64,000 bases of DNA from Xestospongia bergquistia. Its lineage: Eukaryota > Porifera > Demospongiae > Haplosclerida > Petrosiidae. Made by a program: the position numbers and the translations under genes. Below the pieces are notes generated by a model. It was not told the origin of the DNA. It saw only the letters and a list, made by a program, of their open reading frames with translations, and did not search any database. Location of the stretch: the NCBI GenBank assembly GCA_963965975.1, contig OZ014424.1:2976001-3040000 (forward strand), given 5' to 3'. This document shows positions 6,149 to 59,937 of this stretch, piece after piece (position 1 is the stretch's first letter; every line of letters begins with the position of its first letter).

Positions 6149-6291
6149 AAACCAACTTACTAAACTGTTAACAGCAGTTTATTTAGTTAGTCCCATAGAG
6201 TCCTTTTGAATGAGTAGTTTACTTTATAAAATTTACTAAATAGTCTAAACCTTCTAAAGTCTTTAAATTAAAGACTTTAGAGTGTTAATGC

Positions 6292-11918: not shown

Positions 11919-14900
11919 TAAACTCCTATTAACAGTTTAGTAAGTTGGTTTGCATTAACAGTCTAAAGTCTTTAAATTAAAGAGTTTAGAAGGTTTAGAG
12001 TATTGAGTGAATGTTATAAAGTAAAGAGCTTAGTCTAAAGGACTCTATGGGACTAACTAAGTAAACTGTTATTAACAGTTTAGTAAGTTGTTTTGCATTA
12101 ATACTGTAAAGTCTTTAAATTAAAGAGTTTAGAAGTTTTAGACTATTGAGTGAAGTTTATATAGTAAAGAGCTCAGTAAAAAGGACACTGTGGGACTAAC
12201 TAAATAAACTGTTATTAACCGTTTAGTAAGTTTGTTTGCATTAACACTCTAAAGTCTTTAATTTAAATACTTTAGAAGGTTTAGACTATTGATTGAACTT
12301 TATAAAGTAAACAGCTCAGTCTAAAGTACTCTATGGGATTAACGAAATAAAATGTTATTAACAGTTTAGTAAGTTGGTTTGCATTAACACTCTAAAGTCT
12401 TTAATTTAAAGACTTTAGAAGGTTTAGACTATTAAATAAATTTTATTATGTAAACTGCTCATTCTAAAGGACTCTATGGGACTAACTAAATAAACTCCTA
12501 TTAACAGTTTAGTAAGATGGTTTGCATTAACTCTCTAAAGTCTTTAAATTAAAGAGTTTAGAACGTTTAGAGTATTGAACGAATTTATAAAGTAAACAGC
12601 TCAGTCTAAAGGACTCTATGGGACTATCTAAGTAAAATGTTATTAACAGTTTAGTAAGTTGGTTTGCATTAACACTTAAAGTCTTTAAATTAAAGACGTT
12701 AGAAGGTTTAGACTACTGAGTGAAGTTTATATAGTAAAGAGCTCTATATAAAGGACTCTACGGGACTAATTAAATAAACTGTTATTAACAGTTTAGTAAG
12801 TTGGTTTGCATTAACACTCTAAAGTCTTCAATTTAAAGACTTTGGAAGGTTTAGACTATTGAGTGAACTTTATAAAGTAAACAGGTCAGACTAAAGGACT
12901 TTATGAAACTAACTAAATAAACTCCTATTAATAGTTTAGTAATTTGGTTCGCATTAACACTATAAAGCCTTTAATTTAAAGAGTTTAGAAGGTTTAGAGT
13001 ATTGAGCGAAGTTTATAAAGTAAACAGCTCAGTCTAAAGGACTCTATGGGAATAACTAAGTAAACTGTTACTAACAGTTTAGTAAGTTTGTTTGCGTTAA
13101 CACTGTAAAGTCTTTAAATTAAAAAGTTTAGAAGGTTTAGACTATTGAGTGAAGTTTATATAGTAAATAGCTCAGTATAAAGGACTCTATTGGACTAACT
13201 AACTAAATTGTTCTTAACAGTTTAGTAAGTTGGTTTGCATTAACACTCTAAAGTCTTTAATTTAAAGACTTTAGAAGGTTTAGACTATTTAGTAAATTTT
13301 ATAAAGTAAACTGCTCATTCTAAAGGACACTATGGGACTAACTAAATAAACTGATATTAACGGTTTAGTAAGTTTGTTTGCATTAACACTCTAAAGTCTT
13401 TAAATTAAAGAGTTTAGAAGGTTTAGACTATTGAGTGAAGTTTATAAAGTAAACAGCTAAGTCTAAAGGACTCTATGAAACTAACAAAATAAACTGCTAT
13501 TAACAGTTTAGTAAGTTGGCTTGCATTAACACTCTAAAGTCTTTAATTTAAAGACTTTAGAATGTTTAGACTATTAAGTAAATTTTATAAAGTAAACTGC
13601 TTATTCTAAAGGACTCTATGGGACTAACGAAATAAACTGCTATTAACAGTTTAGTAAGTTGGTTTGCATTAACACTCTAAAGTCTTTAAATTAAAGAGTT
13701 TAGAAGGTTTAGACTATTGAGTGAAGTTTATAAAGTAAACAGTTCAGTCTAAAGGATTCTATGAAACTAACTAAATAAACTCCTATTAACAGTTTAGTAA
13801 GTTGGTTTGCATTAACACTCTAAAGTCTTTAAATTAAAGAATTTAGAAGGTTTAGACTATTGAGTGAAGTTTATAAAGTAAACAGCTCAGTCTAAAGGAC
13901 TCTATGAAACTAACTAAACAAACTGCTATTAACAGTTTAGTAAGTTGGTTTGCATTAACAGTCTAAAGTCTTTAAATTAAAGACTTGAGAATGTTTAGAC
14001 TATTGAGTGAATTTTATATAGTAAAGAACTCAGTCTAAAGGACCCTACGGGACTAACTAAATAAACTGCTAGTAACAGTTTAGTAACTTGGCTTGCATTA
14101 ACACACTAAAGTCTTTAATTTAAAGACTTTAGAAGGTTTAGACTATTGAGTGAAGTTTATAAAGTGAACAGCTCAGTCTAAAGGACTCTATGAAACTAAC
14201 TAAATAAACTCCTATTAACAGTTTAGTAAGTTTGTTTGCATTAACACTCTCAAGTCTTTAAACTAAAGACTTTAGAAGGTTTGGACTATTGATTGAAATT
14301 TATAAAGTAAAGAGCTCAGTCTAAAGGACTCTATGAAACTAACTAAATGAACTGCTATTAACAGTTTAGTAAGTTGGTTTGAATAAACACTCTAAAGTCT
14401 TTAAATTAAAGACTTTAGAAGGTCTAGACTATTGAGTCAATTTTATAAAGTAAACTGGTCAGTCTAAAGGACTCTATGGGCCTAACTAAATAAACTGCTA
14501 TTAACAGTTTAGTAAGATGGTTTGCATTAACACTCTAAAGTCTTTAAATTAAAGAGTTTAGAGTGTTTAGAGTATTCAGCGAAGTTTATAAAGTAAACAG
14601 CACAGTCTAAAGGACTCTATGGGACTAACTAAGTAAAATGTTATTACCAGTTTAGTAAGTTGGTTTGCATTAACACTGTAAAGTCTTTAAATTAAAGGCT
14701 TTAGAAGGTTTAGACTATTGAGTGAATTAAATATAGTAAATAGCTTAATATAAAGGACTCTACGGGACTAACTAAATAAACTGTTATTAACAGTTTAGTC
14801 AGTTGGTTTGCATTCACACTCTAAAGTCTTTAATTTAAATACTTTAGAAGGTTTGGACTATTGAGTGAAGTTTATAAAGTAAAGAGCTCAGTCTAAAGGA

Positions 14901-17900
14901 CTCTATGGAACTAACTAAATAAACTCCTATTAACAGTTTAGTAATTTGGTTCGGATTAACACTATAAAGTCTTTAATTTAAAGACTTTAGAAGGTTTAGA
15001 CTTTTGAGTAAATTTTATAAAGTAAACTGCTCATTCTAAAGGACTCTATGGGACTAACTAAATAAACTGCTATTAACAGTTTAGTAAGTTGGCTTGCATT
15101 AACACTCTAAAGTCTTTAAATTAAAGACATTAGAAGGTTTAGACTATTGAATGAAGTTTATAAAGTAAAGAACTCAGTCTAAAGGACCCTATGGGACTAA
15201 CTAAATAAACTGTTTTTAACAGTTTAGTAAGTTGGCTTGCATTAACACTCTAAAGTCTTTAATTTAATGTCTTTAGAAGGTTTAGACTATTGAGTGAAGT
15301 TTATAAAGTGAACAGCTCAGTCTAAAGGACTCTATGAAACTAACGAAATAAACTCCTATTAACAGTTTAGTAAGTTGGTTTGCATTAACACTCTAAAGTC
15401 TTTAAATTAATGACTTAAAAAGGTTTGGACTATCGAGTCAATTTTATAAAGTAAACTGCTCAGTCTAAAGAACTCTATAGGCCTAACTAAATAAACTGCT
15501 ATTAACAGTTTAATAAGTTTGTTTGCGTTAACACTCTAAAGTCTTTAAATTAAAGACTTTAGTAAGTGTAGACTATTGAGTGAAGTTTATAAAGTAAAGA
15601 GCTCAATCTAAAGGACTCTATGAAACTAACTAAATAAATTGCTATTAACAGTTAAGTAAGTTGGTTTGCATTAACACTCTAAAGTCTTTAATTTAAAGAC
15701 TTTAGAATGATTAAACTATCGAGTCAAGTTTATAAAGTAAACAGCTCAGTCTAAAGGATTTTATGAATCTAACTAAATAAACTCCTATTAACAGTTTAGT
15801 AAGTTGGTTTGCATTAACACTCTAAAGTCTTTAAATTAAAGAGTTTAGAAGGATTAGAGTATTGAGTGAAGGTTATAAAGTAAAGAGCTTCGTCTAAAGG
15901 ACTCTACGGGACTAACTAAGTAAACTGTTATTAACAGTTTAGTAAGTTGTTTTGCATTAACACTGTAAAGTCTTTAAATTAAAGAGTTTAGAAGGTTTAG
16001 ACTATTGAGTGAAGTTTATATAGTAGAGAGCTCAGTATAAAGGACTGTGTGGGACTAACTAAATAAACTGTTATTAACAGTTTAGTAAGTTTGTTTGCAT
16101 TAACTCTCTAAAGTCTTTAATTTAAAGACTTTAGAAGGTTTAGACTATTGAGTCAAGTTAATATAGTAAAGAGCTCAGTATAAAGGACTCTACAAGACTA
16201 GATAAATAAACTGTTATTAACATTTTAGTAAGTTGGTTTGCATTAACACTCTAAAGTCTTTAATTTAAAGACTTTTGAAGGTTTAGACTATTGAGTGAAG
16301 TTTATAAAGTAAACAGCTCAGACTAAAGGACTCTATGAAACTAACTAAATAAACTCCTATTAATAGTTTAGTAATTTGGTTCGCATTAACACTATAAAGT
16401 CTTTAATTGAAAGAGATTAGAAGGTTTAGTGTATTGAGCGAAGTTTATAAAGTAAACAGCTCAGTCTTAAGGACTCTATGGGAATAACTAAGTAAACTGT
16501 TATTAACAGTTTAGTAAGTTTGTTAGCATTAACACTATAAAGCTTTAAATTAAAGAGTTTAGATAGTTTAGACTGTTGAGTGAAGATTATATAGTAAATA
16601 GCTCAGTATAAAGGACTCTATGGGACTAACTAAATAAATTGTTCTTAACAGTTTAGTAAGTTTGTTTGCATTAACACTTTAAGGTCTTTAATTTAACGAC
16701 TTTAGAAGGTTTAGACTATTTAGTAAATTTTATAAAGTAAACTGCTCATTCTAAAGGACTCTATGGGACTAACTAAATAAACTGCTATTAAAAGTTTAGT
16801 AAGTTGGTTTGCATTAACACTCTAAAGTCTTTAAATTAAAGAGTTTAGAAGGTTTAGACTATAGAGTGAAGTTTTTAAAGTAAACAGCTCAGTCTAAAGG
16901 ACTCTATGAAACTAACTAAATATACTGTATTAACAGTGTAGTAAGTTGGTTTGCATTAACACTCTAAAGTCTTTAAATTAAAGAGTTTAGAAGGTTTAGA
17001 CTATTGCGTGAAGTTTATAAAGTAAACAGCTCAGTCTAAAGGACTCTATGAAACTAACTAAATAAACTGCTATTAACAGTTTAGTAAGTTTGTTTGCATT
17101 AACACTCGAAAGTCTTTAATTTAAAGACTTTAGAAGGTTTAGACTATTGAGTAAATTTTATTATGTAAACTGCTCAGTCTAAAGGACTCTATGGGACTAA
17201 CTAAATAAACTCCTGTTAACAGTTTAGTAAGATGGTTTGCATTAACACTCTAAAGTCTTTAAATTAAAGAGTTTAGAACCTTTAGAGTATTCAGAGAAGT
17301 TTATAAAGTAAACAGCACATTCTAAAGAACTCTATGGGACTAACTAAGAAAAATGTTATTAACAGTTTAGTAAGTTGGTTTGCATTAACACTGTAAAGTC
17401 TTTAAATTAAAGACTTTAGAAGGTTTGGACTATTGAGTGAAATTTATAAAGTAAAGCGCTCAGTCTAAAGGACCCTATTGGACTAACTAAATAAACTGCT
17501 ATTAACAGTTTAGTAAGTTGTTTTGAATAAACAGTCTAAAGTCTTTAATTTAAAGACTTTAGTTTGTCTAGACTGTTGAGTCAATTTTATAAAGTAAACT
17601 GCTCAGTCTAAAGGACTCTATGGGCCTAACTAAATAAACTGCTATTAACAGTTTATTAAGTTTGCTTACGTTAACACTCTAAAGTCTTTAAATTAAAGAC
17701 TTTAGAAAGTGTAGACTATTGAGTGAAGTTTATAAAGTAAAGAGCTCAGTCTAAAGGACTCTATGAATTAACTAAATAAAATGCTATTAACAGTTAAGTA
17801 AGTTGGTTTGCATTAACTCTCTAATGTCTTTAATTTAAAGACTTTAGAAGGTTTAGACTATCGAGTCAAGTTTATAAAGTAAACAGCCCAGTCTAAAGGA

Positions 17901-20900
17901 CTCTATGAAACTAACTAAATAAATTCCAATTAACAGTTTAGTAAATTGGTTTGCATTAACACTCTAGACTCTTTAAATTAAAGAGTTTAGAAGGTTTAGA
18001 GTATTGAGTGAAGCTTATAAAGTAAAGAGCTTAGTCTAAAGGTCTCTATGGGACTAACTAAGTAAACTGTTATTAACAGTTTAGTAAGTTGTTTTGCATT
18101 AACTCTGTAAAGTCCTTAAATTAAAGAGTTTAGAAGGTTTAGACTATTGAGTGAAATTTATATAGTAAAGAGCTCAGCTTAAAGGACTCTATGAAACTAA
18201 ATAAATAAACTGTTATTAACAGATTAGTAAGTTGGTTTGCATTAACACTCTAAAGTCTTTAATTTAAATACTTTAGAAGGTTTAGACTATTGATTGAAGT
18301 TTATAAAGTAAACAGCTCAATCTAAAGTACTCTATGGGAATAACGAAATAAAATGTTATTAACAGTTTAGTAAGTTTGTTTGCATTAAAACTCTAAAGTG
18401 TTTAATTTAAAGACTTTAGATGGTTTAGACTATTGAGTAAATTTTATTATATAAACTGCTCAGTCTAAAGGACTCTATGGGACTAATTAAATAAACTCCT
18501 ATTAACAGTTTAGTAAGATCATTTGCATTAACACTTTAAAGTCTTTAAATTAAAGAGTTTATAACGTTTAGAGTATTGAGCGAAGTTTATAAAGTAAACA
18601 GCTCAGTCTAGAGGACTCTCTGAGACTAACTAAGTAAAGTGTTACTAACAGTTTAGTAAGTTGGTTTGCATTAACACTCTAAAGTCTTTAACTTAAAGAC
18701 TTTTGAAGGTTTAGACTATTGAGTGAAGTTTATATAGTAAACAGCTCAGTCTAAAGGACTCTATGAAACTAACTAAATAAACTGCTATTAACAGTTTAGT
18801 AAGTTGGTTTGTATTACCACTCTAAAGTCTTTAATTTAAAGACTTTAGAAGGTTTAGACTATTGAGTAAATTTTATAAAGTAAACTGCTCATTATAAAGG
18901 ACTCTATGGGACTAACTAAATAAACTGCTATTAACCGGTTAGTAAGTTGGTTTCCTTTAACACTCTAAAGTCTTTAAATTAAAGACTTTAGAAAGTTTAG
19001 ACTATTGAGTGAAGTTTATAAAGTAAAGAACTCATCCTAAAGGACCCTATGGGACTAACTAAATAAACTGTTAGTAACAGTTTAGTAAGTTGGTTTGCAT
19101 TAACACTCTAAAGTCTTTAATTTAAAGAGTTTAGAAGGTTTAGAATATTGATTGAAGTTTATAAAGTGAACAGCTCAGTCTAAAGGACTCTATGAAACTA
19201 AATAAATAAACTCCTATTAACAGTTTAGTAAGTTGGTTTGCATTAACACTGTAAAGTCTTTAAATTAAAGACTTTAGAAGGTTTGGACTATTGAGTGAAG
19301 TTTATAAAGTAAAGAGCTCAGTCTAAAGGACTCTATGAAACTAACTAAATAAACTGCTATTAACAGTTTATTAAGTTGGTTTGAATAAACACTCTAAAGT
19401 CTTTAATTTAAAGACTTTAGAAGGTCTAGACTATTGAGTCAATTTCATAAAGTAAACTGCTCAGTCTAAAGAACTCTATGGGCCTAACTAAATAAACTGC
19501 TATTACAGTTTAGTAAGTTTGTTTGCATTAACACTCTAAAGTCTTTAAATTAAAGACTTTAGGAAGTGTAGACTATTGAGTGAAGTTTATAAAGTAAAGA
19601 GCTCAGTCTAAAGGACTCTATGAAACTAACTAAATAAATGGCTATTAACAGTTAAGTAAGTTGGTTTGCATTAACACTCTAAAGTCTTTAATTTAAAGAC
19701 TTTAGAAGGTTTAGACTATCGAGTCAATTTTATAAAGTAAACAGCTCAGTCTAAAGGATTCTATGAAACTAACTAAATAAACTCCCATTAACAGTTTAGT
19801 AAGTTGGTTTGCATCAACACTCTAAAGTCTTTAAATTAAAGAGTTTAGAAGGTTTAGAGTATTGAGTGAAGGTTATAATGTAAAGAGGTTAGTCTAAAGG
19901 ACTTTATGGGACTAACTAAGTAAACTGTTATTAACAGTTTAGTAAGTTGTTTTGCATTAACACTGTAAAGTCTTTAAATTAAAGAGTTTAGAAGGGTTAG
20001 ACTATTGAGTGAAGTTTATATAGTAAAGAGCTCAGTATAAAGGACTCTGTGGGACTAACTAAATAAACTGTTATTAACAGTTTAGTAAGTTTGTTTGCAT
20101 TAACACTCTAAAGTCTTTAATTTAAAGACTTTAGAAGGTTTAGACTATTGATTGAAGTTTATAAAGTAAACAGCTCAATCTAAAGTACTTTATGGGAATA
20201 ACGAAATAAAGTGGTATTAACAGTTTAGTAAGTTTGTTTGCATTAACACTCTAAAGTCTTTAATTTAAAGACTTTAGAAGGTTTGGACTATTGACTGAAG
20301 TTTATAAAGTAAAGAGCTCAGTCTAAAGGACTCTATGAAACTAAATAAATAAACTGCTATTAACAGTTTAGTAAGTTGGTTTGAATAAACACTCTAAAGT
20401 CTTTAATTTAAAGACTTTAGAAGGTCTAGACTATCGAGTCAATTTTATAAAGTAAACTGCTCAGTCTAAAGAACTCTATGGGCCTAACTAAATAAACTGC
20501 TATTACAGTTTAGTAAGTTTGTTAGCATTAACACTCTAAAGTCTTTAAATTAAAGACTTTAGAAAGTGTATACTGTTGAGTGAAGTTTATAAAGTAAAGA
20601 GTTCAGTCTAAAGGACTCTATGAAACTAACTAAATAAATTGCTATTAACAGTTAAGTAAGATGGTTTGCATTAAGACTCTAAAGTCTTTAATTTAAAGAC
20701 TTTAGAAGGTTTAGACTATCGAGTTAAGTTTACAAAGTAAACAGCTCAGTCTAAAGAATTCTATGAAAATTACTAAATAAACTCCTATTAACAGTTTAGT
20801 AAGTTGTTCTGCATTAACACATTAAAGTCTTTAAATTAAAGAGTTTAGAATGTTTAGACTATTGAGTGATGTTTATATATTAAAGAGCTCAGTATAAAGG

Positions 20901-23900
20901 ACTCTGTGGGACTAACTAAATAAAATGTTATTAACAGTTTAGTAAGTTTATTTGCATTAACTCTCTAAAGACTTTAATTTAAAGACTTTAGAAGGTTTAG
21001 ACTATTGAGTGAAGTTTATATAGTAAATAGCTCAGTATAAAGGACTCTACGGGACTAACTAAATAAACTGTTATTAACAGTTTAGTAAGTTGGTTTGCAT
21101 TAACACTGTAAAGTCTTTAATTTAAAGACTTTAGAAGGTTTAGATTATTGAGTGAAGTTTATAAAGTAAACAGCTCAGACTAAAGGACTCTATGAAACTA
21201 ACTAAATAAACTCCTATTAATAGTTTAGTAATTTCGTTCGCATTAACAATCTAAAGTCTTTAATTTAAACACTTTACAAGGTTTAGACTATTGAGCGAAG
21301 TTTATAAAGTAAACAGCTCAGTCTAAAGGACTCTATGGGAATAACTAAGTAAACTGTTCTTAACAGATTAGTAAGTTTGTTTGCATTAACACTATAAAGT
21401 CTTTAAATTAAAGAGTTTAGAGGGTTTAGACTCTTGAGTGAAGTTTACATAGTAAATAGCTCAGTATAACGGATTCTATGGGACTAACTAAATAAATTGT
21501 TCTTAACAGTTTAGTAAGTTTGTTTGCATTAACACTTTAAAGTCTTTAATTTAACGACTTTAGAAGGTTTAGACTATTTAGTAAATTTTATAAAGTGAAC
21601 TGCTCATTCTAAAGGACTCTATGGGACTAACTAAATAAACTGCTATTAACGGTTTAGTAAGTTTGTTTGCGTTAACACTCTAAAGTCTTTAAATTAAAGA
21701 GTTTAGAAGGTTTAGACTATTGAGTGAAGTTTATAATATAAACAGCTCAGTCTAAAGGACTCTATGAATCTAACAAAATAAACTGCTATTAACAGTTTAG
21801 TAAGTTGGTTTGCATTAACACTCTAAAGTCTTTAATTAAAGACTTTAGAAGGTTTAGACTATTGAGTAAAATTTATAAAGTAAACTGCTCATTCTAAAGG
21901 TATCTATGGGACTAACTAAATAAACTGCTATTAACAGTTTAGTAAGTTGGTTTGCATTAACACTCTAAAGTCTTTAAATTAAAATGTTTAGAAGGTTTAG
22001 ACTATTGAGTGAAGTTTATAAAGTAAAGAGCTCAGTCTGAAGGACTCTATGAAACAAACTAAATAAACTGCTATTAACAGTTTAGTAAGTTGGTTTGCAT
22101 TAACACTCTAAAGTCTTTAAATTAAAGAGTTTAGAAGGTTTAGACTATTGAGTGAAGTTTATAAAGTAAACAGCTCAGTCTAAAGGACTCTATGAAACTA
22201 ACTAAATAAACTGCTAGTAACAGTTTGAAAAGTTTGTTTGCATTAACACTCTAAAGTCTTTAATTTAAAGACTTTAGAAGGTTTAGACTATTGAGTAAAT
22301 TTTATTATGTAAACTGCTCAGTCTAAAGGACTCTATGGGACTAACTAAATAAACTCGTATTGACAGTTTAGTAAGATGGCTTGCATTAACACTCTAAAGT
22401 CTTTAAATTAAAGACTTTAGAAGGTTTAGACTATTGAGTGAAGTTTATAAAGTAAACAGCTCATTCTAAAGGACTCTATGAAAATAACTAAATAAACTCC
22501 TATTAATAGTTTAGTAATTTCGTTCGCATTAACACTATAAACTCTTTAATTTAAAGATTTTAGAAAGTTTAGAGTATTGAGCGAAGTTTATAAAGTAAAC
22601 AGCTCAGTCTAAAGGACTCCATGGGAATAACTAAGTAAAATGTTATTAACAGTTTAGTAAGTTTGTTTGCATTAACACTGTAAAGTCTTTAAATTAAAGA
22701 GTTTAGAGCGTTTAGACTATTGAGTGAAGTTTATATAGTAAATAGCTCAGTATAACGGACTCTATGGGACTAACTAAATAAATTGTTCTTAACAGTTTAG
22801 TAAGTTGGTTTGCATTAACACTCTAAAGTCTTTAATTTAACGACTTTAGAAGTTTTAGACTATTGAGTAAAATTTCTAAAGTAACCTACTCATTGTAAAG
22901 GACTCTATGGGACTAACTAAATGAACTACTATTAACGGTTTAGTAAGTTGGTTTGCATTAACACTCTAAAGTCTTTAAATTAAAGAGTTTAGAAGGTTTA
23001 GACTATTGAGTGAAGTTTATAAAGAAAACAGCTCAGTCTAAAGGACTCTATAGGACTAACTAAACAAACTGCTATTAACAGTTTAGTAAGTTTGTTTGCA
23101 TTAACACTCTAAAGTCTTTAGATTAAAGACTTTATAAAGTTTAGACTATTGAGTGAAGTTTATAAAGTAAACAGCTCAGTCTAAAGGACTCTAAGAAACT
23201 AACTAAATAAACTGCTATTAACAGTTTAGTAAGTTTGTTTGCATTAACACTCTAAAGTCTTTAATTTAAAGACTTTAGAAGGTTTAGACTATTGAGTAAA
23301 TTTTATAAAGTAAACTACTCATTCTAAAGGACTCTATGGGACTAACTAAATAAACTGCTGTTAACAGTTTAGTGAGTTGGTTTGCATTAACTCTCTAAAG
23401 TCTTTAAATTAATGACTTTAGAAGGTTTAGACTATTGACTGAAGTTTATAAAGTAAACACCTCAGTCAAAAGGACTCTATGAAACTAACTAAACAAACTG
23501 CTATTAACAGTTTAGTAAGTTGGTTTGCATTAACACTCTAAAGTCTTTAAATTAAAGACTTTAGAAAGTTTAGACTATTGAGTGAAGTTTATAAAGTAAA
23601 CAGCTCACTCTAAAGGACTCTATGAAACTAACTAAATAAACTGCTATTAACAGTTTAGTAAGTTGGTTTGCATTAAGACTCTAAAGTCTTTAATTTAAAG
23701 ACTTTAGAAGGTTTAGACTATTGATTAAATTTTATAAAGTAAACTACTCATTCTAAAGGACTCTATGGGACTAACTAAATAATCTGCAGTTAACAGTTTA
23801 GTAAGTTGGTTTGCATTAACACTCTAATGTCTTTAAATTAAAGTCTTTAGAAGGCTTAGACTATTGAGTGAAGTTTATAAAGTAAACAGCTCATTCTAAA

Positions 23901-24851
23901 GGACTCTATGGGACTAACTAAATAAACTGCTATTAACAGTTTAGTAAGTTGGTTAGCATTAACACTCTTAAGTCTTTCAATTAATGACTTTAGAATGTTT
24001 AGACTATTGAGTGAAGTTTATAAAGTAAACACCTCAGTCTAAAGGACTCTATGAAACTAACTATACAAACTGCTATTAACAGTTTAGTCAGTTGGTTTGC
24101 ATTAACACTCTAAAGTCTTTAAATTAAAGATATTAGAAAGTTTAGACTATTGAGTGAAGTTTATAAAGTAAACAGCTCAGTCTAAAGGACTCTATGATAC
24201 TAACTAAATAAACTGCTATTAACAGTTTAGTAAGTTGGTTTGCATTAACACTCTAAAGTCTTTAAGTCAAAGAGTTTAGAAGGTTTAGGCTATTGAGTGA
24301 TGTTTATAAGTAAACAGCTCAGTCTAAAGGACTCTATAGGACTAACTAAATAAACTGCTATTAACAGTTTAGTAAGTTGGTTTTATTAACACTCTAAAGT
24401 CTTTATATTAAAAGTTTAGAAGGCTTAGACTATTGAGTGAAGTTTATAAAGTAAACAGCTCAGTCTAAAGGACTCTATGGGACTAACTAAATAAGCTGCT
24501 GTGAACAGTTTAGTAAGTTGGTTTGCATTAACACTCTAAAGTCTTTAATTAATGACTTTAGAAGGTTTAGACTATTGAGTGAAGTTTATAAAGTAAACAC
24601 CTCAGTCTAAAGGACTCTATGAAACTAACTAAACAAACTGCTACAAACAGTTTAGTAAGTTGGTTTGCATTAACACTCCAAAGTCTTTAAATTAAAGACT
24701 TTAGAAAGTTTAGACTGTTGAGTGAAGTTTATAAAGTAAACAGCTCAGTCTAAAGGACTCTATGAAACTAACTAAATAAACTGCTATTAACAGTTTAGTA
24801 AGTTGGTTTGCATTAACACTCTAAAGTCTTTAATTTAAAGACTTTAAAACG
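11919..24851 (-). repeat. left arm of giant satellite palindrome (12.9 kb)
   Basis: Read in reverse complement, this arm reproduces 25,508-38,725 of block 3. Anchor pairs I checked, all giving x + y = 50,644, are 11,920 with 38,724; 14,581 with 36,063; 20,041 with 30,603; 21,471 with 29,173; 22,351 with 28,293; and 22,781 with 27,863. Nearer the centre, 23,101 pairs with 27,257 and 24,421 with 25,938 (sum 50,358-50,359). Private variants are shared throughout, for example CTCATCCTAAAGGACCC, GAGGACTCTCTGAGAC and AACTCGTATTGACAG. No substitution was found at the anchors, but I did not align every base. Confidence 0.92.
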
Positions 24852-25507: not shown

Positions 25508-28500
25508 GTTTTAAAGTCTTTAAATTAAAGACTTTAGAGTGTTAATGCAAACCAACTTACTAAACTGTTAATAGCAGTTTATTTAGTTAGTTTCATAGAG
25601 TCCTTTAGACTGAGCTGTTTACTTTATAAACTTCACTCAACAGTCTAAACTTTCTAAAGTCTTTAATTTAAAGACTTTGGAGTGTTAATGCAAACCAACT
25701 TACTAAACTGTTTGTAGCAGTTTGTTTAGTTAGTTTCATAGAGTCCTTTAGACTGAGGTGTTTACTTTATAAACTTCACTCAATAGTCTAAACCTTCTAA
25801 AGTCATTAATTAAAGACTTTAGAGTGTTAATGCAAACCAACTTACTAAACTGTTCACAGCAGCTTATTTAGTTAGTCCCATAGAGTCCTTTAGACTGAGC
25901 TGTTTACTTTATAAACTTCACTCAATAGTCTAAGCCTTCTAAACTTTTAATATAAAGACTTTAGAGTGTTAATAAAACCAACTTACTAAACTGTTAATAG
26001 CAGTTTATTTAGTTAGTCCTATAGAGTCCTTTAGACTGAGCTGTTTACTTATAAACATCACTCAATAGCCTAAACCTTCTAAACTCTTTGACTTAAAGAC
26101 TTTAGAGTGTTAATGCAAACCAACTTACTAAACTGTTAATAGCAGTTTATTTAGTTAGTATCATAGAGTCCTTTAGACTGAGCTATTTACTTTATAAACT
26201 TCACTCAATAGTCTAAACTTTCTAATATCTTTAATTTAAAGACTTTAGAGTGTTAATGCAAACCAACTGACTAAACTGTTAATAGCAGTTTGTATAGTTA
26301 GTTTCATAGAGTCCTTTAGACTGAGGTGTTTACTTTATAAACTTCACTCAATAGTCTAAACATTCTAAAGTCATTAATTGAAAGACTTAAGAGTGTTAAT
26401 GCTAACCAACTTACTAAACTGTTAATAGCAGTTTATTTAGTTAGTCCCATAGAGTCCTTTAGAATGAGCTGTTTACTTTATAAACTTCACTCAATAGTCT
26501 AAGCCTTCTAAAGACTTTAATTTAAAGACATTAGAGTGTTAATGCAAACCAACTTACTAAACTGTTAACTGCAGATTATTTAGTTAGTCCCATAGAGTCC
26601 TTTAGAATGAGTAGTTTACTTTATAAAATTTAATCAATAGTCTAAACCTTCTAAAGTCTTTAAATTAAAGACTTTAGAGTCTTAATGCAAACCAACTTAC
26701 TAAACTGTTAATAGCAGTTTATTTAGTTAGTTTCATAGAGTCCTTTAGAGTGAGCTGTTTACTTTATAAACTTCACTCAATAGTCTAAACTTTCTAAAGT
26801 CTTTAATTTAAAGACTTTAGAGTGTTAATGCAAACCAACTTACTAAACTGTTAATAGCAGTTTGTTTAGTTAGTTTCATAGAGTCCTTTTGACTGAGGTG
26901 TTTACTTTATAAACTTCAGTCAATAGTCTAAACCTTCTAAAGTCATTAATTTAAAGACTTTAGAGAGTTAATGCAAACCAACTCACTAAACTGTTAACAG
27001 TAGTTTATTTAGTTAGTCCCATAGAGTCCTTTAGAATGAGTAGTTTACTTTATAAAATTTACTCAATAGTCTAAACCTTCTAAAGTCTTTAAATTAAAGA
27101 CTTTAGAGTGTTAATGCAAACAAACTTACTAAACTGTTAATAGCAGTTTATTTAGTTAGTTTCTTAGAGTCCTTTAGACTGAGCTGTTTACTTTATAAAC
27201 TTCACTCAATAGTCTAAACTTTATAAAGTCTTTAATCTAAAGACTTTAGAGTGTTAATGCAAACAAACTTACTAAACTGTTAATAGCAGTTTGTTTAGTT
27301 AGTCCTATAGAGTCCTTTAGACTGAGCTGTTTTCTTTATAAACTTCACTCAATAGTCTAAACCTTCTAAACTCTTTAATTTAAAGACTTTAGAGTGTTAA
27401 TGCAAACCAACTTACTTAACTGTTAATAGCAGTTTATAAAGTTAGTCCCATAGAGTCCTTTAGAATGAGCAGTTTACTTTACAAAATTTACTCAATAGTC
27501 TAAACCTTCTAAAGTCTTTAAATTAAAGACTTTAGAGTGTTAATGCAAACCAACTTACTAAACTCTTAATAGCAGTTTATTTTGTAAGTTTCATAGAGTC
27601 CTTTAGACTGAGCTGTTTACTTTATAAACTGCACTCAATAGTCTAAACCTTCTAAACTCTTTAATTTAAAGACTTTAGAGTGTTAATGCAAACCAACTTA
27701 CTAAACCGTTAATAGTAGTTCATTTAGTTAGTCCCATAGAGTCCTTTACAATGAGTAGGTTACTTTAGAAATTTTACTCAATAGTCTAAAACTTCTAAAG
27801 TCGTTAAATTAAAGACTTTAGAGTGTTAATGCAAACCAACTTACTAAACTGTTAAGAACAATTTATTTAGTTAGTCCCATAGAGTCCGTTATACTGAGCT
27901 ATTTACTATATAAACTTCACTCAATAGTCTAAACGCTCTAAACTCTTTAATTTAAAGACTTTACAGTGTTAATGCAAACAAACTTACTAAACTGTTAATA
28001 ACATTTTACTTAGTTATTCCCATGGAGTCCTTTAGACTGAGCTGTTTACTTTATAAACTTCGCTCAATACTCTAAACTTTCTAAAATCTTTAAATTAAAG
28101 AGTTTATAGTGTTAATGCGAACGAAATTACTAAACTATTAATAGGAGTTTATTTAGTTATTTTCATAGAGTCCTTTAGAATGAGCTGTTTACTTTATAAA
28201 CTTCACTCAATAGTCTAAACCTTCTAAAGTCTTTAATTTAAAGACTTTAGAGTGTTAATGCAAGCCATCTTACTAAACTGTCAATACGAGTTTATTTAGT
28301 TAGTCCCATAGAGTCCTTTAGACTGAGCAGTTTACATAATAAAATTTACTCAATAGTCTAAACCTTCTAAAGTCTTTAAATTAAAGACTTTAGAGTGTTA
28401 ATGCAAACAAACTTTCTAAACTGTTACTAGCAGTTTATTTAGTTAGTTTCATAGAGTCCTTTAGACTGAGCTGTTTACTTTATAAACTTCACTCAATAGT

Positions 28501-29560
28501 CTAAACCTTCTAAACTCTTTAATTTAAAGACTTTAGAGTGTTAATGCAAACCAACTTACTAAACTGTTAATAGCAGTTTATTTAGTTTGTTTCATAGAGT
28601 CCTTCAGACTGAGCTCTTTACTTTATAAACTTCACTCAATAGTCTAAACCTTCTAAACATTTTAATTTAAAGACTTTAGAGTGTTAATGCAAACCAACTT
28701 ACTAAACTGTTAATAGCAGTTTATTTAGTTAGTCCCATAGATACCTTTAGAATGAGCAGTTTACTTTATAAATTTTACTCAATAGTCTAAACCTTCTAAA
28801 GTCTTTAATTAAAGACTTTAGAGTGTTAATGCAAACCAACTTACTAAACTGTTAATAGCAGTTTATTTTGTTAGATTCATAGAGTCCTTTAGACTGAGCT
28901 GTTTATATTATAAACTTCACTCAATAGTCTAAACCTTCTAAACTCTTTAATTTAAAGACTTTAGAGTGTTAACGCAAACAAACTTACTAAACCGTTAATA
29001 GCAGTTTATTTAGTTAGTCCCATAGAGTCCTTTAGAATGAGCAGTTCACTTTATAAAATTTACTAAATAGTCTAAACCTTCTAAAGTCGTTAAATTAAAG
29101 ACTTTAAAGTGTTAATGCAAACAAACTTACTAAACTGTTAAGAACAATTTATTTAGTTAGTCCCATAGAATCCGTTATACTGAGCTATTTACTATGTAAA
29201 CTTCACTCAAGAGTCTAAACCCTCTAAACTCTTTAATTTAAAGACTTTATAGTGTTAATGCAAACAAACTTACTAATCTGTTAAGAACAGTTTACTTAGT
29301 TATTCCCATAGAGTCCTTTAGACTGAGCTGTTTACTTTATAAACTTCGCTCAATAGTCTAAACCTTGTAAAGTGTTTAAATTAAAGACTTTAGATTGTTA
29401 ATGCGAACGAAATTACTAAACTATTAATAGGAGTTTATTTAGTTAGTTTCATAGAGTCCTTTAGTCTGAGCTGTTTACTTTATAAACTTCACTCAATAAT
29501 CTAAACCTTCTAAAGTCTTTAAATTAAAGACTTTACAGTGTTAATGCAAACCAACTTACT

Positions 29561-29579
29561 AAACTGTTAATAACAGTTT
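29561..29579. repeat. second monomer dyad, 19-bp palindrome (example)
   Basis: AAACTGTTA, a central A, and TAACAGTTT form a perfect palindrome in the monomers that read AATAACAG. Most monomers read AATAGCAG and keep a shorter stem, AAACTG with CAGTTT around a 7-base loop. The dyad lies about 60-70 bp from the 29 bp palindrome. Confidence 0.75.
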
Positions 29580-30099
29580 ATTTAGTTAGTCCCGTAGAGT
29601 CCTTTATACTGAGCTATTTACTATATAAACTTCACTCAATAGTCTAAACCTTCTAAAGTCTTTAAATTAAAGTCTTTAGAGAGTTAATGCAAATAAACTT
29701 ACTAAACTGTTAATAACATTTTATTTAGTTAGTCCCACAGAGTCCTTTATACTGAGCTCTTTAATATATAAACATCACTCAATAGTCTAAACATTCTAAA
29801 CTCTTTAATTTAAAGACTTTAATGTGTTAATGCAGAACAACTTACTAAACTGTTAATAGGAGTTTATTTAGTAATTTTCATAGAATTCTTTAGACTGAGC
29901 TGTTTACTTTGTAAACTTAACTCGATAGTCTAAACCTTCTAAAGTCTTTAAATTAAAGACTTTAGAGTCTTAATGCAAACCATCTTACTTAACTGTTAAT
30001 AGCAATTTATTTAGTTAGTTTCATAGAGTCCTTTAGACTGAACTCTTTACTTTATAAACTTCACTCAACAGTATACACTTTCTAAAGTCTTTAATTTAA

Positions 30100-32000
30100 A
30101 GACTTTAGAGTGTTAATGCTAACAAACTTACTAAACTGTAATAGCAGTTTATTTAGTTAGGCCCATAGAGTTCTTTAGACTGAGCAGTTTACTTTATAAA
30201 ATTGACTCGATAGTCTAGACCTTCTAAAGTCTTTAAATTAAAGACTTTAGAGTGTTTATTCAAACCAACTTACTAAACTGTTAATAGCAGTTTATTTATT
30301 TAGTTTCATAGAGTCCTTTAGACTGAGCTCTTTACTTTATAAACTTCAGTCAATAGTCCAAACCTTCTAAAGTCTTTAAATTAAAGACTTTAGAGTGTTA
30401 ATGCAAACAAACTTACTAAACTGTTAATACCACTTTATTTCGTTATTCCCATAAAGTACTTTAGATTGAGCTGTTTACTTTATAAACTTCAATCAATAGT
30501 CTAAACCTTCTAAAGTCTTTAAATTAAAGACTTTAGAGTGTTAATGCAAACAAACTTACTAAACTGTTAATAACAGTTTATTTAGTTAGTCCCACAGAGT
30601 CCTTTATACTGAGCTCTTTACTATATAAACTTCACTCAATAGTCTAACCCTTCTAAACTCTTTAATTTAAAGACTTTACAGTGTTAATGCAAAACAACTT
30701 ACTAAACTGTTAATAACAGTTTACTTAGTTAGTCCCATAAAGTCCTTTAGACTAACCTCTTTACATTATAACCTTCACTCAATACTCTAAACCTTCTAAA
30801 CTCTTTAATTTAAAGACTTTAGAGTGTTGATGCAAACCAACTTACTAAACTGTTAATGGGAGTTTATTTAGTTAGTTTCATAGAATCCTTTAGACTGAGC
30901 TGTTTACTTTATAAAATTGACTCGATAGTCTAAACCTTCTAAAGTCTTTAAATTAAAGACTTTAGAGTGTTAATGCAAACCAACTTACTTAACTGTTAAT
31001 AGCCATTTATTTAGTTAGTTTCATAGAGTCCTTTAGACTGAGCTCTTTACTTTATAAACTTCACTCAATAGTCTACACTTCCTAAAGTCTTTAATTTAAA
31101 GACTTTAGAGTGTTAATGCAAACAAACTTACTAAACTGTAATAGCAGTTTATTTAGTTAGGCCCATAGAGTTCTTTAGACTGAGCAGTTTACTTTATGAA
31201 ATTGACTCAATAGTCTAGACCTTCTAAAGTCTTTAAATTAAAGACTTTAGAGTGTTTATTCAAACCAACTTAATAAACTGTTAATAGCAGTTTATTTAGT
31301 TAGTTTCATAGAGTCCTTTAGACTGAGCTCTTTACTTTATAAACTTCACTCAATAGTCCAAACCTTCTAAAGTCTTTAATTTAAAGACTTTACAGTGTTA
31401 ATGCAAACCAACTTACTAAACTGTTAATAGGAGTTTATTTATTTAGTTTCATAGAGTCCTTTAGACTGAGCTGTTCACTTTATAAACTTCAATCAATATT
31501 CTAAACCTTCTAAACTCTTTAAATTAAAGACTTTAGAGTGTTAATGCAAACCAACTTACTAAACTGTTACTAACAGTTTATTTAGTTAGTCCCATAGGGT
31601 CCTTTAGGATGAGTTCTTTACTTTATAAACTTCACTCAATAGTCTAAACTTTCTAAAGTCTTTAATTTAAAGACTTTAGAGTGTTAAAGGAAACCAACTT
31701 ACTAACCGGTTAATAGCAGTTTATTTAGTTAGTCCCATAGAGTCCTTTATAATGAGCAGTTTACTTTATAAAATTTACTCAATAGTCTAAACCTTCTAAA
31801 GTCTTTAAATTAAAGACTTTAGAGTGGTAATACAAACCAACTTACTAAACTGTTAATAGCAGTTTATTTAGTTAGTTTCATAGAGTCCTTTAGACTGAGC
31901 TGTTTACTATATAAACTTCACTCAATAGTCTAAACCTTCAAAAGTCTTTAAGTTAAAGACTTTAGAGTGTTAATGCAAACCAACTTACTAAACTGTTAGT
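30100..32000 (+). repeat. 7-monomer repeat at 1,000 bp, mirrored at about 18.6-20.5 kb
   Basis: The block with AGGCCCATAGAGTTC and the short GTAATAGCAG monomer occurs at 30,141 and again at 31,141. Its mirror image is in the left palindrome arm (TATTACAGTTTAG at 19,501 and 20,501), as expected if the repeat predates the palindrome. Boundaries are approximate. Confidence 0.7.
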
Positions 32001-35000
32001 AACACTTTACTTAGTTAGTCTCAGAGAGTCCTCTAGACTGAGCTGTTTACTTTATAAACTTCGCTCAATACTCTAAACGTTATAAACTCTTTAATTTAAA
32101 GACTTTAAAGTGTTAATGCAAATGATCTTACTAAACTGTTAATAGGAGTTTATTTAATTAGTCCCATAGAGTCCTTTAGACTGAGCAGTTTATATAATAA
32201 AATTTACTCAATAGTCTAAACCATCTAAAGTCTTTAAATTAAACACTTTAGAGTTTTAATGCAAACAAACTTACTAAACTGTTAATAACATTTTATTTCG
32301 TTATTCCCATAGAGTACTTTAGATTGAGCTGTTTACTTTATAAACTTCAATCAATAGTCTAAACCTTCTAAAGTATTTAAATTAAAGACTTTAGAGTGTT
32401 AATGCAAACCAACTTACTAATCTGTTAATAACAGTTTATTTATTTAGTTTCATAGAGTCCTTTAAGCTGAGCTCTTTACTATATAAATTTCACTCAATAG
32501 TCTAAACCTTCTAAACTCTTTAATTTAAGGACTTTACAGAGTTAATGCAAAACAACTTACTAAACTGTTAATAACAGTTTACTTAGTTAGTCCCATAGAG
32601 ACCTTTAGACTAAGCTCTTTACTTTATAAGCTTCACTCAATACTCTAAACCTTCTAAACTCTTTAATTTAAAGAGTCTAGAGTGTTAATGCAAACCAATT
32701 TACTAAACTGTTAATTGGAATTTATTTAGTTAGTTTCATAGAGTCCTTTAGACTGGGCTGTTTACTTTATAAACTTGACTCGATAGTCTAAACCTTCTAA
32801 AGTCTTTAAATTAAAGACATTAGAGAGTTAATGCAAACCAACTTACTTAACTGTTAATAGCATTTTATTTAGTTAATTCATAGAGTCCTTTAGACTGAGC
32901 TCTTTACTTTATAAACTTCACTCAATAGTCTACACTTTCTAAAGTCTTTAATTTAAAGACTTTAGAGTGTTAACGTAAGCAAACTTAATAAACTGTTAAT
33001 AGCAGTTTATTTAGTTAGGCCCATAGAGTCCTTTAGACTGAGCAGTTTACTTTATAAAATTGACTCAACAGTCTAGACAAACTAAAGTCTTTAAATTAAA
33101 GACTTTAGACTGTTTATTCAAAACAACTTACTAAACTGTTAATAGCAGTTTATTTAGTTAGTCCAATAGGGTCCTTTAGACTGAGCGCTTTACTTTATAA
33201 ATTTCACTCAATAGTCCAAACCTTCTAAAGTCTTTAATTTAAAGACTTTACAGTGTTAATGCAAACCAACTTACTAAACTGTTAATAACATTTTTCTTAG
33301 TTAGTCCCATAGAGTTCTTTAGAATGTGCTGTTTACTTTATAAACTTCTCTGAATACTCTAAAGGTTCTAAACTCTTTAATTTAAAGACTTTAGAGTGTT
33401 AATGCAAACCATCTTACTAAACTGTTAACAGGAGTTTATTTAGTTAGTCCCATAGAGTCCTTTAGACTGAGCAGTTTACATAATAAAGTTTACTCAATAG
33501 TCTAAACCTTCTAAAGTCTTTAAATTAAAGACTTTCGAGTGTTAATGCAAACAAACTTACTAAACTGTTAATAGCAGTTTATTTAGTTAGTTTCATAGAG
33601 TCCTTTAGACTGAGCTGTTTACTTTATAAACTTCACGCAATAGTCTAAACCTTCTAAACTCTTTAATTTAAAGACTTTAGAGTGTTAATGCAAACCAACT
33701 TACTACACTGTTAATACAGTATATTTAGTTAGTTTCATAGAGTCCTTTAGACTGAGCTGTTTACTTTAAAAACTTCACTCTATAGTCTAAACCTTCTAAA
33801 CTCTTTAATTTAAAGACTTTAGAGTGTTAATGCAAACCAACTTACTAAACTTTTAATAGCAGTTTATTTAGTTAGTCCCATAGAGTCCTTTAGAATGAGC
33901 AGTTTACTTTATAAAATTTACTAAATAGTCTAAACCTTCTAAAGTCGTTAAATTAAAGACCTTAAAGTGTTAATGCAAACAAACTTACTAAACTGTTAAG
34001 AACAATTTATTTAGTTAGTCCCATAGAGTCCTTTATACTGAGCTATTTACTATATAATCTTCACTCAACAGTCTAAACTATCTAAACTCTTTAATTTAAA
34101 GCTTTATAGTGTTAATGCTAACAAACTTACTAAACTGTTAATAACAGTTTACTTAGTTATTCCCATAGAGTCCTTTAGACTGAGCTGTTTACTTTATAAA
34201 CTTCGCTCAATACACTAAACCTTCTAATCTCTTTCAATTAAAGACTTTATAGTGTTAATGCGAACCAAATTACTAAACTATTAATAGGAGTTTATTTAGT
34301 TAGTTTCATAGAGTCCTTTAGTCTGAGCTGTTTACTTTATAAACTTCACTCAATAGTCTAAACCTTCAAAAGTCTTTAAATTAAAGACTTTAGAGTGTTA
34401 ATGCAAACCAACTTACTAAAATGTTAATAACAGTTTATTTATCTAGTCTTGTAGAGTCCTTTATACTGAGCTCTTTACTATATTAACTTGACTCAATAGT
34501 CTAAACCTTCTAAAGTCTTTAAATTAAAGACTTTAGAGAGTTAATGCAAACAAACTTACTAAACTGTTAATAACAGTTTATTTAGTTAGTCCCACACAGT
34601 CCTTTATACTGAGCTCTCTACTATATAAACTTCACTCAATAGTCTAAACCTTCTAAACTCTTTAATTTAAAGACTTTACAGTGTTAATGCAAAACAACTT
34701 ACTAAACTGTTAATAACAGTTTACTTAGTTAGTCCCGTAGAGTCCTTTAGACGAAGCTCTTTACTTTATAACCTTCACTCAATACTCTAATCCTTCTAAA
34801 CTCTTTAATTTAAAGACTTTAGAGTGTTAATGCAAACCAACTTACTAAACTGTTAATAGGAGTTTATTTAGTTAGATTCATAAAATCCTTTAGACTGAGC
34901 TGTTTACTTTATAAACTTGACTCGATAGTTTAATCATTCTAAAGTCTTTAAATTAAAGACTTTAGAGTGTTAATGCAAACCAACTTACTTAACTGTTAAT

Positions 35001-35939
35001 AGCAATTTATTTAGTTAGTTTCATAGAGTCCTTTAGATTGAGCTCTTTACTTTATAAACTTCACTCAATAGTCTACACTTACTAAAGTCTTTAATTTAAA
35101 GACTTTAGAGTGTTAACGCAAACAAACTTATTAAACTGTTAATAGCAGTTTATTTAGTTAGGCCTATAGAGTTCTTTAGACTGAGCAGTTTACTTTATAA
35201 AATTGACTCGATAGTCCAAACCTTTTTAAGTCATTAATTTAAAGACTTTAGAGTGTTAATGCAAACCAACTTACTAAACTGTTAATAGGAGTTTATTTCG
35301 TTAGTTTCATAGAGTCCTTTAGACTGAGCTGTTCACTTTATAAACTTCACTCAATAGTCTAAACCTTCTAAAGACATTAAATTAAAGACTTTAGAGTGTT
35401 AATGCAAGCCAACTTACTAAACTGTTAAAAACAGTTTATTTAGTTAGTCCCATAGGGTCCTTTAGACTGAGTTCTTTACTTTATAAACTTCATTCAATAG
35501 TCTAAACCTTCTAATGTCTTTAATTTAAAGACTTTAGAGTGTTAATGCAAGCCAACTTACTAAACTGTTAATAGCAGTTTATTTAGTTAGTCCCATAGAG
35601 TCCTTTAGAATGAGCAGTTTACTTTATAAAATTTACTCAAAAGTCTAAACCTTCTAAAGTCTTTAAATTAAAGACTTTATAGTGTTAATCCGAACCAAAT
35701 TACTAAACTGTTAATAGGAGTTTATTTAGTTAGTTCCATAGAGTCCTTTAGACTGAGCTCTTTACTTTATAAACTTCACTCAATAGTCCAAACCTTCTAA
35801 AGTATTTAAATTAAAGACTTTAGAGTGTGAATGCAAACCAACTTACTAAACTGTTAATAACAGTTTATTTAGTTAGTCCCGTAGAGTCCTTTATATTAAG
35901 CTATTTACTATATTTAATTCACTCAATAGTCTAAACCTT

Positions 35940-38900
35940 CTAAAGCCTTTAATTTAAAGACTTTACAGTGTTAATGCAAACCAACTTACTAAACTGGTAA
36001 TAACATTTTACTTAGTTAGTCCCATAGAGTCCTTTAGACTGTGCTGTTTACTTTATAAACTTCGCTGAATACTCTAAACACTCTAAACTCTTTAATTTAA
36101 AGACTTTAGAGTGTTAATGCAAACCATCTTACTAAACTGTTAATAGCAGTTTATTTAGTTAGGCCCATAGACTCCTTTAGACTGACCAGTTTACTTTATA
36201 AAATTGACTCAATAGTCTAGAGCTTCTAAAGTCTTTAATTTAAAGACTTTAGAGTGTTTATTCAAACCAACTTACTAAACTGTTAATAGCAGTTCATTTA
36301 GTTAGTTTCATAGAGTCCTTTAGACTGAGCTCTTTACTTTATAAATTTCAATCAATAGTCCAAACCTTCTAAAGTCTTTAGTTTAAAGACTTGAGAGTGT
36401 TAATGCAAACAAACTTACTAAACTGTTAATAGGAGTTTATTTAGTTAGTTTCATAGAGTCCTTTAGACTGAGCTGTTCACTTTATAAACTTCACTCAATA
36501 GTCTAAACCTTCTAAAGTCTTTAAATTAAAGACTTTAGTGTGTTAATGCAAGCCAAGTTACTAAACTGTTACTAGCAGTTTATTTAGTTAGTCCCGTAGG
36601 GTCCTTTAGACTGAGTTCTTTACTATATAAAATTCACTCAATAGTCTAAACATTCTCAAGTCTTTAATTTAAAGACTTTAGACTGTTAATGCAAACCAAC
36701 TTACTAAACTGTTAATAGCAGTTTGTTTAGTTAGTTTCATAGAGTCCTTTAGACTGAGCTGTTTACTTTATAAACTTCACTCAATAGTCTAAACCTTCTA
36801 AATTCTTTAATTTAAAGACTTTAGAGTGTTAATGCAAACCAACTTACTAAACTGTTAATAGGAGTTTATTTAGTTAGTTTCATAGAATCCTTTAGACTGA
36901 ACTGTTTACTTTATAAACTTCACTCAATAGTCTAAACCTTCTAAACTCTTTAATTTAAAGACTTTAGAGTGTTAATGCAAACCAACTTACTAAACTGTTA
37001 ATAGCAGTTTATTTCGTTAGTCCCATAGAGTCCTTTAGAATAAGCAGTTTACTTTATAAAATTTACTTAATAGTCTAAACATTCTAAAGTCTTTAAATTA
37101 AAGACTTTAGAGTGTTAATGCAAGCCAACTTACTAAACTGTTAATAGCAGTTTATTTTGTTAGTTTCATAGAGTCCTTTAGACTTAGCTGTTTACTTTAT
37201 AAACTTCACTCAATAGTCTAAACCTTCTAAACTCTTTAATTTAAAGACTTTAGAGTGTTAATGCAAACAAACTTACTAAACCGTTAATATCAGTTTATTT
37301 AGTTAGTCCCATAGTGTCCTTTAGAATGAGCAGTTTACTTTATAAAATTTACTAAATAGTCTAAACCTTCTAAAGTCTTTAAATTAAAGACTTTAGAGTG
37401 TTAATGCAAACCAACTTACTAAACTGTTAAGAACAATTTAGTTAGTTAGTCCAATAGAGTCCTTTATACTGAGCTATTTACTATATAAACTTCACTCAAT
37501 AGTCTAAACCTTCTAAACTTTTTAATTTAAAGACTTTACAGTGTTAACGCAAACAAACTTACTAAACTGTTAGTAACAGTTTACTTAGTTATTCCCATAG
37601 AGTCCTTTAGACTGAGCTGTTTACTTTATAAACTTCGCTCAATACTCTAAACCTTCTAAACTCTTTAAATTAAAGGCTTTATAGTGTTAATGCGAACCAA
37701 ATTACTAAACTATTAATAGGAGTTTATTTATTTAGTTTCATAAAGTCCTTTAGTCTGACCTGTTTACTTTATAAAGTTCACTCAATAGTCTAAACCTTCC
37801 AAAGTCTTTAAATTGAAGACTTTAGAGTGTTAATGCAAACCAACTTACTAAACTGTTAATAACAGTTTATTTAATTAGTCCCGTAGAGTCCTTTATATAG
37901 AGCTCTTTACTATATAAACTTCACTCAGTAGTCTAAACCTTCTAACGTCTTTAATTTAAAGACTTTAAGTGTTAATGCAAACCAACTTACTAAACTGTTA
38001 ATAACATTTTACTTAGATAGTCCCATAGAGTCCTTTAGACTGAGCTGTTTACTTTATAAATTCGTTCAATACTCTAAACGTTCTAAACTCTTTAATTTAA
38101 AGACTTTAGAGAGTTAATGCAAACCATCTTACTAAACTGTTAATAGGAGTTTATTTAGTTAGTCCCATAGAGTCCTTTAGAATGAGCAGTTTACATAATA
38201 AAATTTATTTAATAGTCTAAACCTTCTAAAGTCTTTAAATTAAAGACTTTAGAGTGTTAATGCAAACCAACTTACTAAACTGTTAATAACATTTTATTTC
38301 GTTAATCCCATAGAGTACTTTAGACTGAGCTGTTTACTTTATAAAGTTCAATCAATAGTCTAAACCTTCTAAAGTATTTAAATTAAAGACTTTAGAGTGT
38401 TAATGCAAACAAACTTACTAAACGGTTAATAACAGTTTATTTAGTTAGTCCCACAGTGTCCTTTTTACTGAGCTCTTTACTATATAAACTTCACTCAATA
38501 GTCTAAAACTTCTAAACTCTTTAATTTAAAGACTTTACAGTATTAATGCAAAACAACTTACTAAACTGTTAATAACAGTTTACTTAGTTAGTCCCATAGA
38601 GTCCTTTAGACTAAGCTCTTTACTTTATAACATTCACTCAATACTCTAAACCTTCTAAACTCTTTAATTTAAAGACTTTAGACTGTTAATGCAAACCAAC
38701 TTACTAAACTGTTAATAGGAGTTTATTTAGTTAGTTTCATAGAGTCCCTTAGACTAAGCTGTTTACTTTATAAACTTGACTCGATAGTCTAAACTTTCTA
38801 AAGTGTTTAAATTAAAGACTTTAGAGTGTTAATGCAAACCAACTTACTTAACTGTTAATAGCATTTTACTTAGTTAGTTTCATAGAGTCCTTTAGACTGA

Positions 38901-57512: not shown

Positions 57513-57516
57513 TGTT

Positions 57517-57582: not shown

Positions 57583-57624
57583 TGTTAGTATAAGATGAAT
57601 TGCTCTCTTTTTTTTCTGTCATAG

Positions 57625-57767: not shown

Positions 57768-57788
57768 GTTAGTTCGATATTATCCTTG

Positions 57789-59488: not shown

Positions 59489-59564
59489 GTCCCCCTACCT
59501 GCTAACTACAAACTCATGTGTTCTCTCTATCACGCTCTCTTTTCTCTTAAATCTACTTTAACAG

Positions 59565-59925: not shown

Positions 59926-59937
59926 TGTTAATAAATC

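Follow-up and report, generated by a model that had tools for sequence, protein, structure and literature searches.

A 64,000-nucleotide stretch of the genome of the sponge Xestospongia bergquistia (assembly GCA_963965975.1, contig OZ014424.1, forward strand, positions 2,976,001 to 3,040,000; hereafter the window) carries a giant near-perfect palindrome within a tandem array of a 143-bp satellite. The left arm (12,932 bp, 11919..24850, reverse orientation) is a colinear mirror, at 99.92% identity, of the right arm (13,218 bp, 25508..38725, forward orientation). We consider that the palindrome arose by one recent U-turn inverted duplication of ~13.6 kb in the array, through template switching or break repair, and give this reading a probability of roughly 0.5. 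The palindrome looks like a single young event, for which a selected function is not needed. All results come from one assembled sequence, and the comparisons are confined to the 64-kb window.

The satellite array occupies positions 1-57512 of the window, at 28-30% GC, and the 143-bp family is the only one seen over its length. Its orientation switches three times across 57.5 kb: the monomers run forward over 1-11918, in reverse over 11919-25507, forward again over 25508-56784 and in reverse over 56785-57512, where the array gives way to a non-satellite flank. The central reverse block, which the initial annotation had ended at 24,851, thus continues to 25507. The first forward block (block A, 1..11918) is made of a more homogeneous subtype of the 143-bp monomer, with a mean of 11.7 edits between monomers within the block and 15.3-15.6 edits from the monomers of other blocks. 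Satellites of tenebrionid beetles have a similar monomer length, near 142 bp, a likeness by length alone. Searching the literature for satellites of 143 bp turned up one listed paper, on a rotifer.

The consensus monomer contains dyads over most of its length and is partly self-complementary. As single-stranded DNA it is predicted to fold into three hairpins at -22.6 kcal/mol, compared with -9.6 +/- 2.4 kcal/mol for shuffled versions, none of which reached as low a value (0/300); starting the monomer at two other points gives -19.9 and -19.7 kcal/mol. An argument that the breakpoints described below lie near dyads was dropped: with dyads spanning most of the monomer, proximity carries no weight.

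Alignment of the reverse complement of the left arm with the right arm shows 10 mismatches over 12,932 columns, no small indels and a single gap of 286 bp. This confirms the near-total identity with one gap that had been expected, and with it the palindrome itself, with small corrections: the arms differ in length by 286 bp (two monomers) and not by 285 bp, and the spacer between them is 657 bp long (24851-25507) and not 656 bp. The anchor pairs reported earlier, with coordinate sums of 50,644 in the outer and 50,358-50,359 in the inner part of the arms, were recovered as two antidiagonals. The outer register (x+y=50644) extends over 11,202 bp at 99.84% identity (11919-23120 against 27524-38725), and the inner register (x+y=50358) over 1,909 bp at 99.9% (22942-24850 against 25508-27416). 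There are 18 raw mismatches on the first and 2 on the second; 10 of the 18 fall past the register switch and vanish once the 286-bp gap is placed, which leaves the total of 10. These comprise five transitions and five transversions, and the adjacent pair at 22227/22228 may represent a single event. The arm-specific alleles include those at 12913/37731, 14422/36222, 14472/36172 and 14800/35844. The left arm contains only 6 homopolymer runs of at least 5 bases, and the lack of small indels therefore says little about sequencing error.

The two monomers that distinguish the arms are absent from the left arm at 22941..23012 (reverse orientation) and present in the right arm within 27346..27702 (forward orientation), the exact place being ambiguous in both, over ~72 bp in the left arm. 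The extra 286 bp is only 90-91% like the adjoining 286 bp, which rules out a recent tandem copy; more likely, the left arm lost the two monomers by a deletion between similar ones. As for the substitutions, comparison with the tandem repeats of the outer right arm (described below) shows that 3 of the 10 are private to the right arm. Most of the matching contexts found in the window suggest that the right arm carries the derived base at another three sites (at one of them on 6 contexts only) and the left arm at two, with the adjacent pair unassigned.

The likeness between the arms is specific to the mirror register. Twelve 1-kb pieces of the left arm, covering 11919-23918 and leaving out the innermost 932 bp of the arm, matched their mirror partners at 99.5-100% (counting alignments of at least 850 bp), compared with 91.4-95.3% for the best register that was neither the mirror nor a tandem copy. 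Arm identity is thus well above that of the other non-tandem registers. The three outermost pieces also match tandem repeats of the outer right arm, at 99.4, 99.7 and 96.9%. The same specificity is seen monomer by monomer: the reverse block was cut into 94 monomers, 90 of which lie within the left arm, and the mirror partner was the best or tied-best match for 88 of these 90 and the sole best for 81, with a median of 0 edits to the mirror versus 5 to the best non-mirror monomer. One of the two misses is monomer 14530-14388, which lies closer to a tandem copy because of two substitutions found in the right arm alone; a 98-bp fragment produced by the monomer cutting at the block end accounts for the second. 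With the arms and the tandem repeats of the outer right arm set aside, all inverted pairs of at least 700 bp in the window are below 96% identity. The earlier proposal that the left block is the specific mirror copy of 25508-38725 is well supported by these comparisons.

The three orientation switches occur at junctions of different structure. At the inner junction of the palindrome (J1, 25507..25511, AACA[GTTT]TAAAG), position 25 of a reverse monomer, as derived from the last true reverse monomer start at 25388 plus one period, meets position 110 of a forward monomer, with 4 bp of microhomology (GTTT). Among 20,000 simulated random joins in the array, at least 4 bp were shared in 3.8%. The outer junction (J2, 11918..11919) joins forward position 61 to reverse position 40 and has 0 bp of microhomology, versus 4 bp at J1. 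A third junction near the array edge (J3, 56784..56785) joins forward position 134 to reverse position 44 with 2 bp of microhomology. The phase pairs, 61/40, 25/110 and 134/44, therefore differ at all three. The spacer (24851..25507, reverse orientation) is contiguous with the left arm and is single-copy, with a best other match in the window of 96.0%.

The two outer ends of the palindrome are unlike each other. J2 breaks both phase and orientation, while at 38725/38726 the right arm passes seamlessly, with no junction, into the array beyond. The continuity across 38725/38726 recurs at 42155/6 and 47725/6, and the following 642 bp, common to the three forward copies, are 99.4% alike. To the left of 11919 no mirrored second copy was seen, the 1-kb tail of block A being at most 94.6% identical to other DNA in the window. 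The initial annotation had placed the arms flush against both orientation junctions, which holds for the outer end of the left arm (11918/9) and the inner end of the right arm (25507/8) and fails for the other two ends. It had also proposed one recent foldback duplication of about 13 kb. A specific, colinear and recent inverted duplication is what we find; the term foldback fits only in part, as the spacer lies on the left arm but the right arm is the one that continues seamlessly. This combination implies either that two switches or joins inserted the left block as a copy, or that a longer palindrome had its left arm trimmed later.

We favor the inserted copy. The left block is probably the copy because the sequence across 38725/6 is seamless and recurs in the downstream tandem copies, while 11918/9 breaks phase and orientation. 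In this simplest history the forward array would be the source, and the reverse block, arm and spacer together, would be its inverted copy, whose insertion created two junctions. In the proposed mechanism, a DNA end or stalled nascent strand at present-day position 25508 of the forward array would have annealed by GTTT to the opposite strand, 657 bp further upstream. Reverse copying or joining of the array would have followed for 13.6 kb, to the equivalent of 38725, and the copied end would then have been joined to forward block A at 11918. This could have occurred by two-switch replication template switching, or by sister-chromatid fusion or fragment capture, where sister ends broken 657 bp apart would fuse head-to-head and a second join would follow. 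We infer that the copy and both of its junctions stem from one event. Hairpins may have promoted the U-turn, which so hairpin-rich a monomer makes plausible.

The tandem copies allow this event to be placed relative to others. A 3430-bp tandem duplication has its first copy at 35938..39367 (forward; the aligned segment runs to 39375), straddling the right arm's outer end at 38725/38726, and its second copy, T2, at 39368..42805 (forward, 99.4% identical to the first). A further forward copy, T3 (45684..48768), reproduces 40114-43198 at a distance of 5570 bp and is 100% identical over 3,085 bp. In the 2,788 bp that both arms share with T2, 3 sites distinguish the left arm from the right, 17 distinguish the right arm from T2 and 14 the left arm from T2; the left arm has 0 private bases. 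Within this region, 2,042 bp exist in four copies and contain 10 variable sites, 9 of which unite the two arms against T2 and T3 and one of which is private to the right arm. The adjoining 746 bp exist in three copies and contain 7 variable sites, 5 uniting the arms against T2 and 2 private to the right arm. Taking the number of differences as a clock, the mirror copy would be younger than the 3430-bp tandem duplication, given 3 differences versus 17.

Several points weigh against this account of origin and age. The sequence is that of one assembly, in which polishing could have homogenized the arms, so that their divergence would be understated. The 657-bp spacer lies on the left arm, which under simple fold-back geometry makes the left arm the native one. 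J2 is devoid of microhomology, so J1 and J2 could differ in mechanism or in age, and the microhomology at J1 was scored against the adjoining monomer one period back as a stand-in for the original continuation. With regard to order, the sites that vary among the four copies are not decisive by themselves, since a left arm that split off first and changed slowly also fits. Arm-to-arm gene conversion could in addition make an old palindrome seem young by resetting the count: the identity of the arms to each other (99.92%), compared with ~99.4-99.5% between arms and tandem copies, fits youth or gene conversion.

The position of the spacer leads to a textbook fold-back, a possible history that we rank second, behind that of the inserted copy. 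Here the resected end of the left block would have folded onto itself through GTTT and served as primer for a rightward copy of the left side. The resulting palindrome would have been longer, and a later cut at 11919 would have shortened its left arm, which was then attached to block A. Human fold-back duplications have the same geometry, as seen from the spacer on the left arm and the 4 bp of microhomology (PMC3907307). Against this, the arm that continues into the repeated array is the right one, not the left, and this history needs at least one extra trimming at 11919 and probably another event for the right-hand flank. Alternatively, the block might have been duplicated directly and one copy then flipped by a balanced inversion, which would be in keeping with the large tandem duplications of 3430 and 5570 bp nearby. 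Its inversion breaks would need to match the duplication ends, though, and re-inverting the block joins position 61 to 25 and position 40 to 110, so that neither end is in phase; already disfavored by phase, this course of events is very improbable.

It is also conceivable, if rather unlikely, that the palindrome is an artefact of assembly or library preparation, such as a fold-back chimeric read, a palindrome from whole-genome amplification, or two haplotypes of one locus joined head-to-head. The arms are nearly identical and could have been homogenized by polishing, satellite arrays are hard to assemble, and fold-back reads have been documented, recurring at the same places (PMC12870357). 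The same study puts them at ~0.55-0.6% of Oxford Nanopore Technologies (ONT) genomic reads. On the other hand, the 10 substitutions and 286-bp indel between the arms are unlike a single molecule read twice, and an artefact would require two separate junctions that break phase, one with 4 bp of homology and one with 0 bp, to be false alike. Virtually no fold-backs are reported for PacBio HiFi in three PacBio samples (PMC12870357), which would count against an artefact if the present assembly was built from such reads. The unequal arms and off-centre spacer, which the initial annotation had held against read-through of one molecule, do weaken the artefact without deciding the matter: one published artefact read has ~2 kb between its segments (PMC12870357), and an off-centre axis is therefore no proof.

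Selection or maintenance of a macro-dyad structure, as proposed for (peri)centromeric satellites of Tribolium, with the arms kept alike by gene conversion (our own addition to that proposal), seems improbable. Three orientation switches in a 57.5-kb array, a dyad-rich consensus monomer and an overall architecture like that described in PMC13081366 all agree with it. Against this, the junction phases differ from one another, where T. madens has conserved inversion sites; there is only one satellite family, and other inverted pairs in the window are less alike, as given above. The U-turn duplication with an inserted copy remains the reading we prefer.

Judged by architecture, the closest pattern we found is nevertheless the "macro-dyad symmetry" of Tribolium. 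In Tribolium madens, the satellites TmSat1 and TmSat2 form direct and inverted subarrays, with short dyads and maxima of 75 kb and 26 kb; the inversion sites are specific, highly conserved and found thousands of times, and the organization was checked on HiFi reads (PMC13081366). Both systems have multi-kb direct and inverted subarrays of one satellite with short dyads, facing each other. Within the window, however, there is no recurrent conserved inversion site, with three junctions showing three phase pairs, and there is one family in place of Tribolium's two intermingled satellites, major and minor. Conversely, the monomer-by-monomer mirror identity seen here is absent from the consulted parts of the Tribolium description (PMC13081366). 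That paper states that the pattern is documented only in Tribolium. Apart from Tribolium, our literature search recognized no large palindrome of satellite DNA in the titles and abstract openings of the papers listed (15 of 6,830, 12 of 12, 4 of 4 and 5 of 5 matches), with thin coverage of subscription papers, and others may be in print.

Inverted duplications outside satellites offer mechanistic parallels. Human fold-back inverted duplications have 2-8 bp of microhomology at 13 of 21 sequenced junctions and spacers of 766-70,466 bp, and the classical event leaves a disomic (single-copy) spacer on the native arm, the other arm being the copy (PMC3907307). The sponge palindrome resembles them in being an inverted duplication with a single-copy spacer and a few bp of microhomology at its inner junction. 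Its 657-bp spacer falls just below their range, its seamless arm is on the opposite side, and it is an array-internal block, whereas many of the human cases lie beside terminal deletions, with megabase duplications in the table rows consulted (PMC3907307). Foldback priming near inverted repeats would be a feature shared with yeast inverted duplications at breaks (PMC10622511), and palindromic junctions of inverted copies are shared with the model of origin-dependent inverted-repeat amplification (ODIRA; PMC10766186); unlike in these systems, no second mirrored copy is seen left of 11919.

We tentatively suggest, as a possibility that is less likely than the U-turn event itself, that macro-dyad satellite symmetry occurs beyond Tribolium and has its beginning in one U-turn duplication, primed by microhomology within an array rich in hairpins. 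If so, the present locus would represent the birth stage, before an inversion site is amplified and conserved. The way in which satellites switch orientation is difficult to follow, since their arrays resist assembly and an inversion consisting largely of satellite may be discarded by filtering; the methods of a mouse telomere-to-telomere (T2T) study state such a filter (PMC12597820). An inverted duplication resolved to the base, with its junctions and tandem copies, makes the order of events and the chemistry of the junctions testable within a satellite and, if borne out by reads, would point to a possible starting route for large palindromes in centromere-like DNA.

Elsewhere in the array, block A has duplications of its own, such as 1-1619 versus 6292-7910 (99.5%). 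Downstream of the palindrome, 44117-45978 is recopied at 48767-50628 (99.1%), which implies a loss of ~0.9 kb at 48768. Monomer spacing is irregular at 48686-48849 (81 bp) and 54669-55024 (179 bp), probably reflecting out-of-phase joins of copies. The short reverse block at the array edge (56785..57512) has a best other match of 87.8%. A 27-base core of the monomer had 0 exact matches in genome-contig and viral-contig collections, and searches of the DNA returned 0 Rfam matches at the gathering score and 0 tRNAs.

The non-satellite flank (57513..64000) has ~31-35% GC and contains exon-like stretches. A Pfam scan of 20 of its 110 listed open reading frames gave none above the family cut-off; a sub-threshold match to Htt_N-HEAT_1 at 61336-61518 on the reverse strand (E=0.027, 15.3 bits versus a cut-off of 31.2) is probably due to chance. 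Two plausible exons at 63563-63664 and 63772-63909, which match no Pfam family, surround a short intron of ~110 bp. Short introns and tetranucleotide repeats might hint at a sponge or another marine invertebrate, a reading given no weight here. A 74-nt direct repeat (57514-57587 versus 58973-59046, 95%) has its first copy beginning at the end of the satellite array, and is possibly the remnant of a mobile element or a mark of array insertion.

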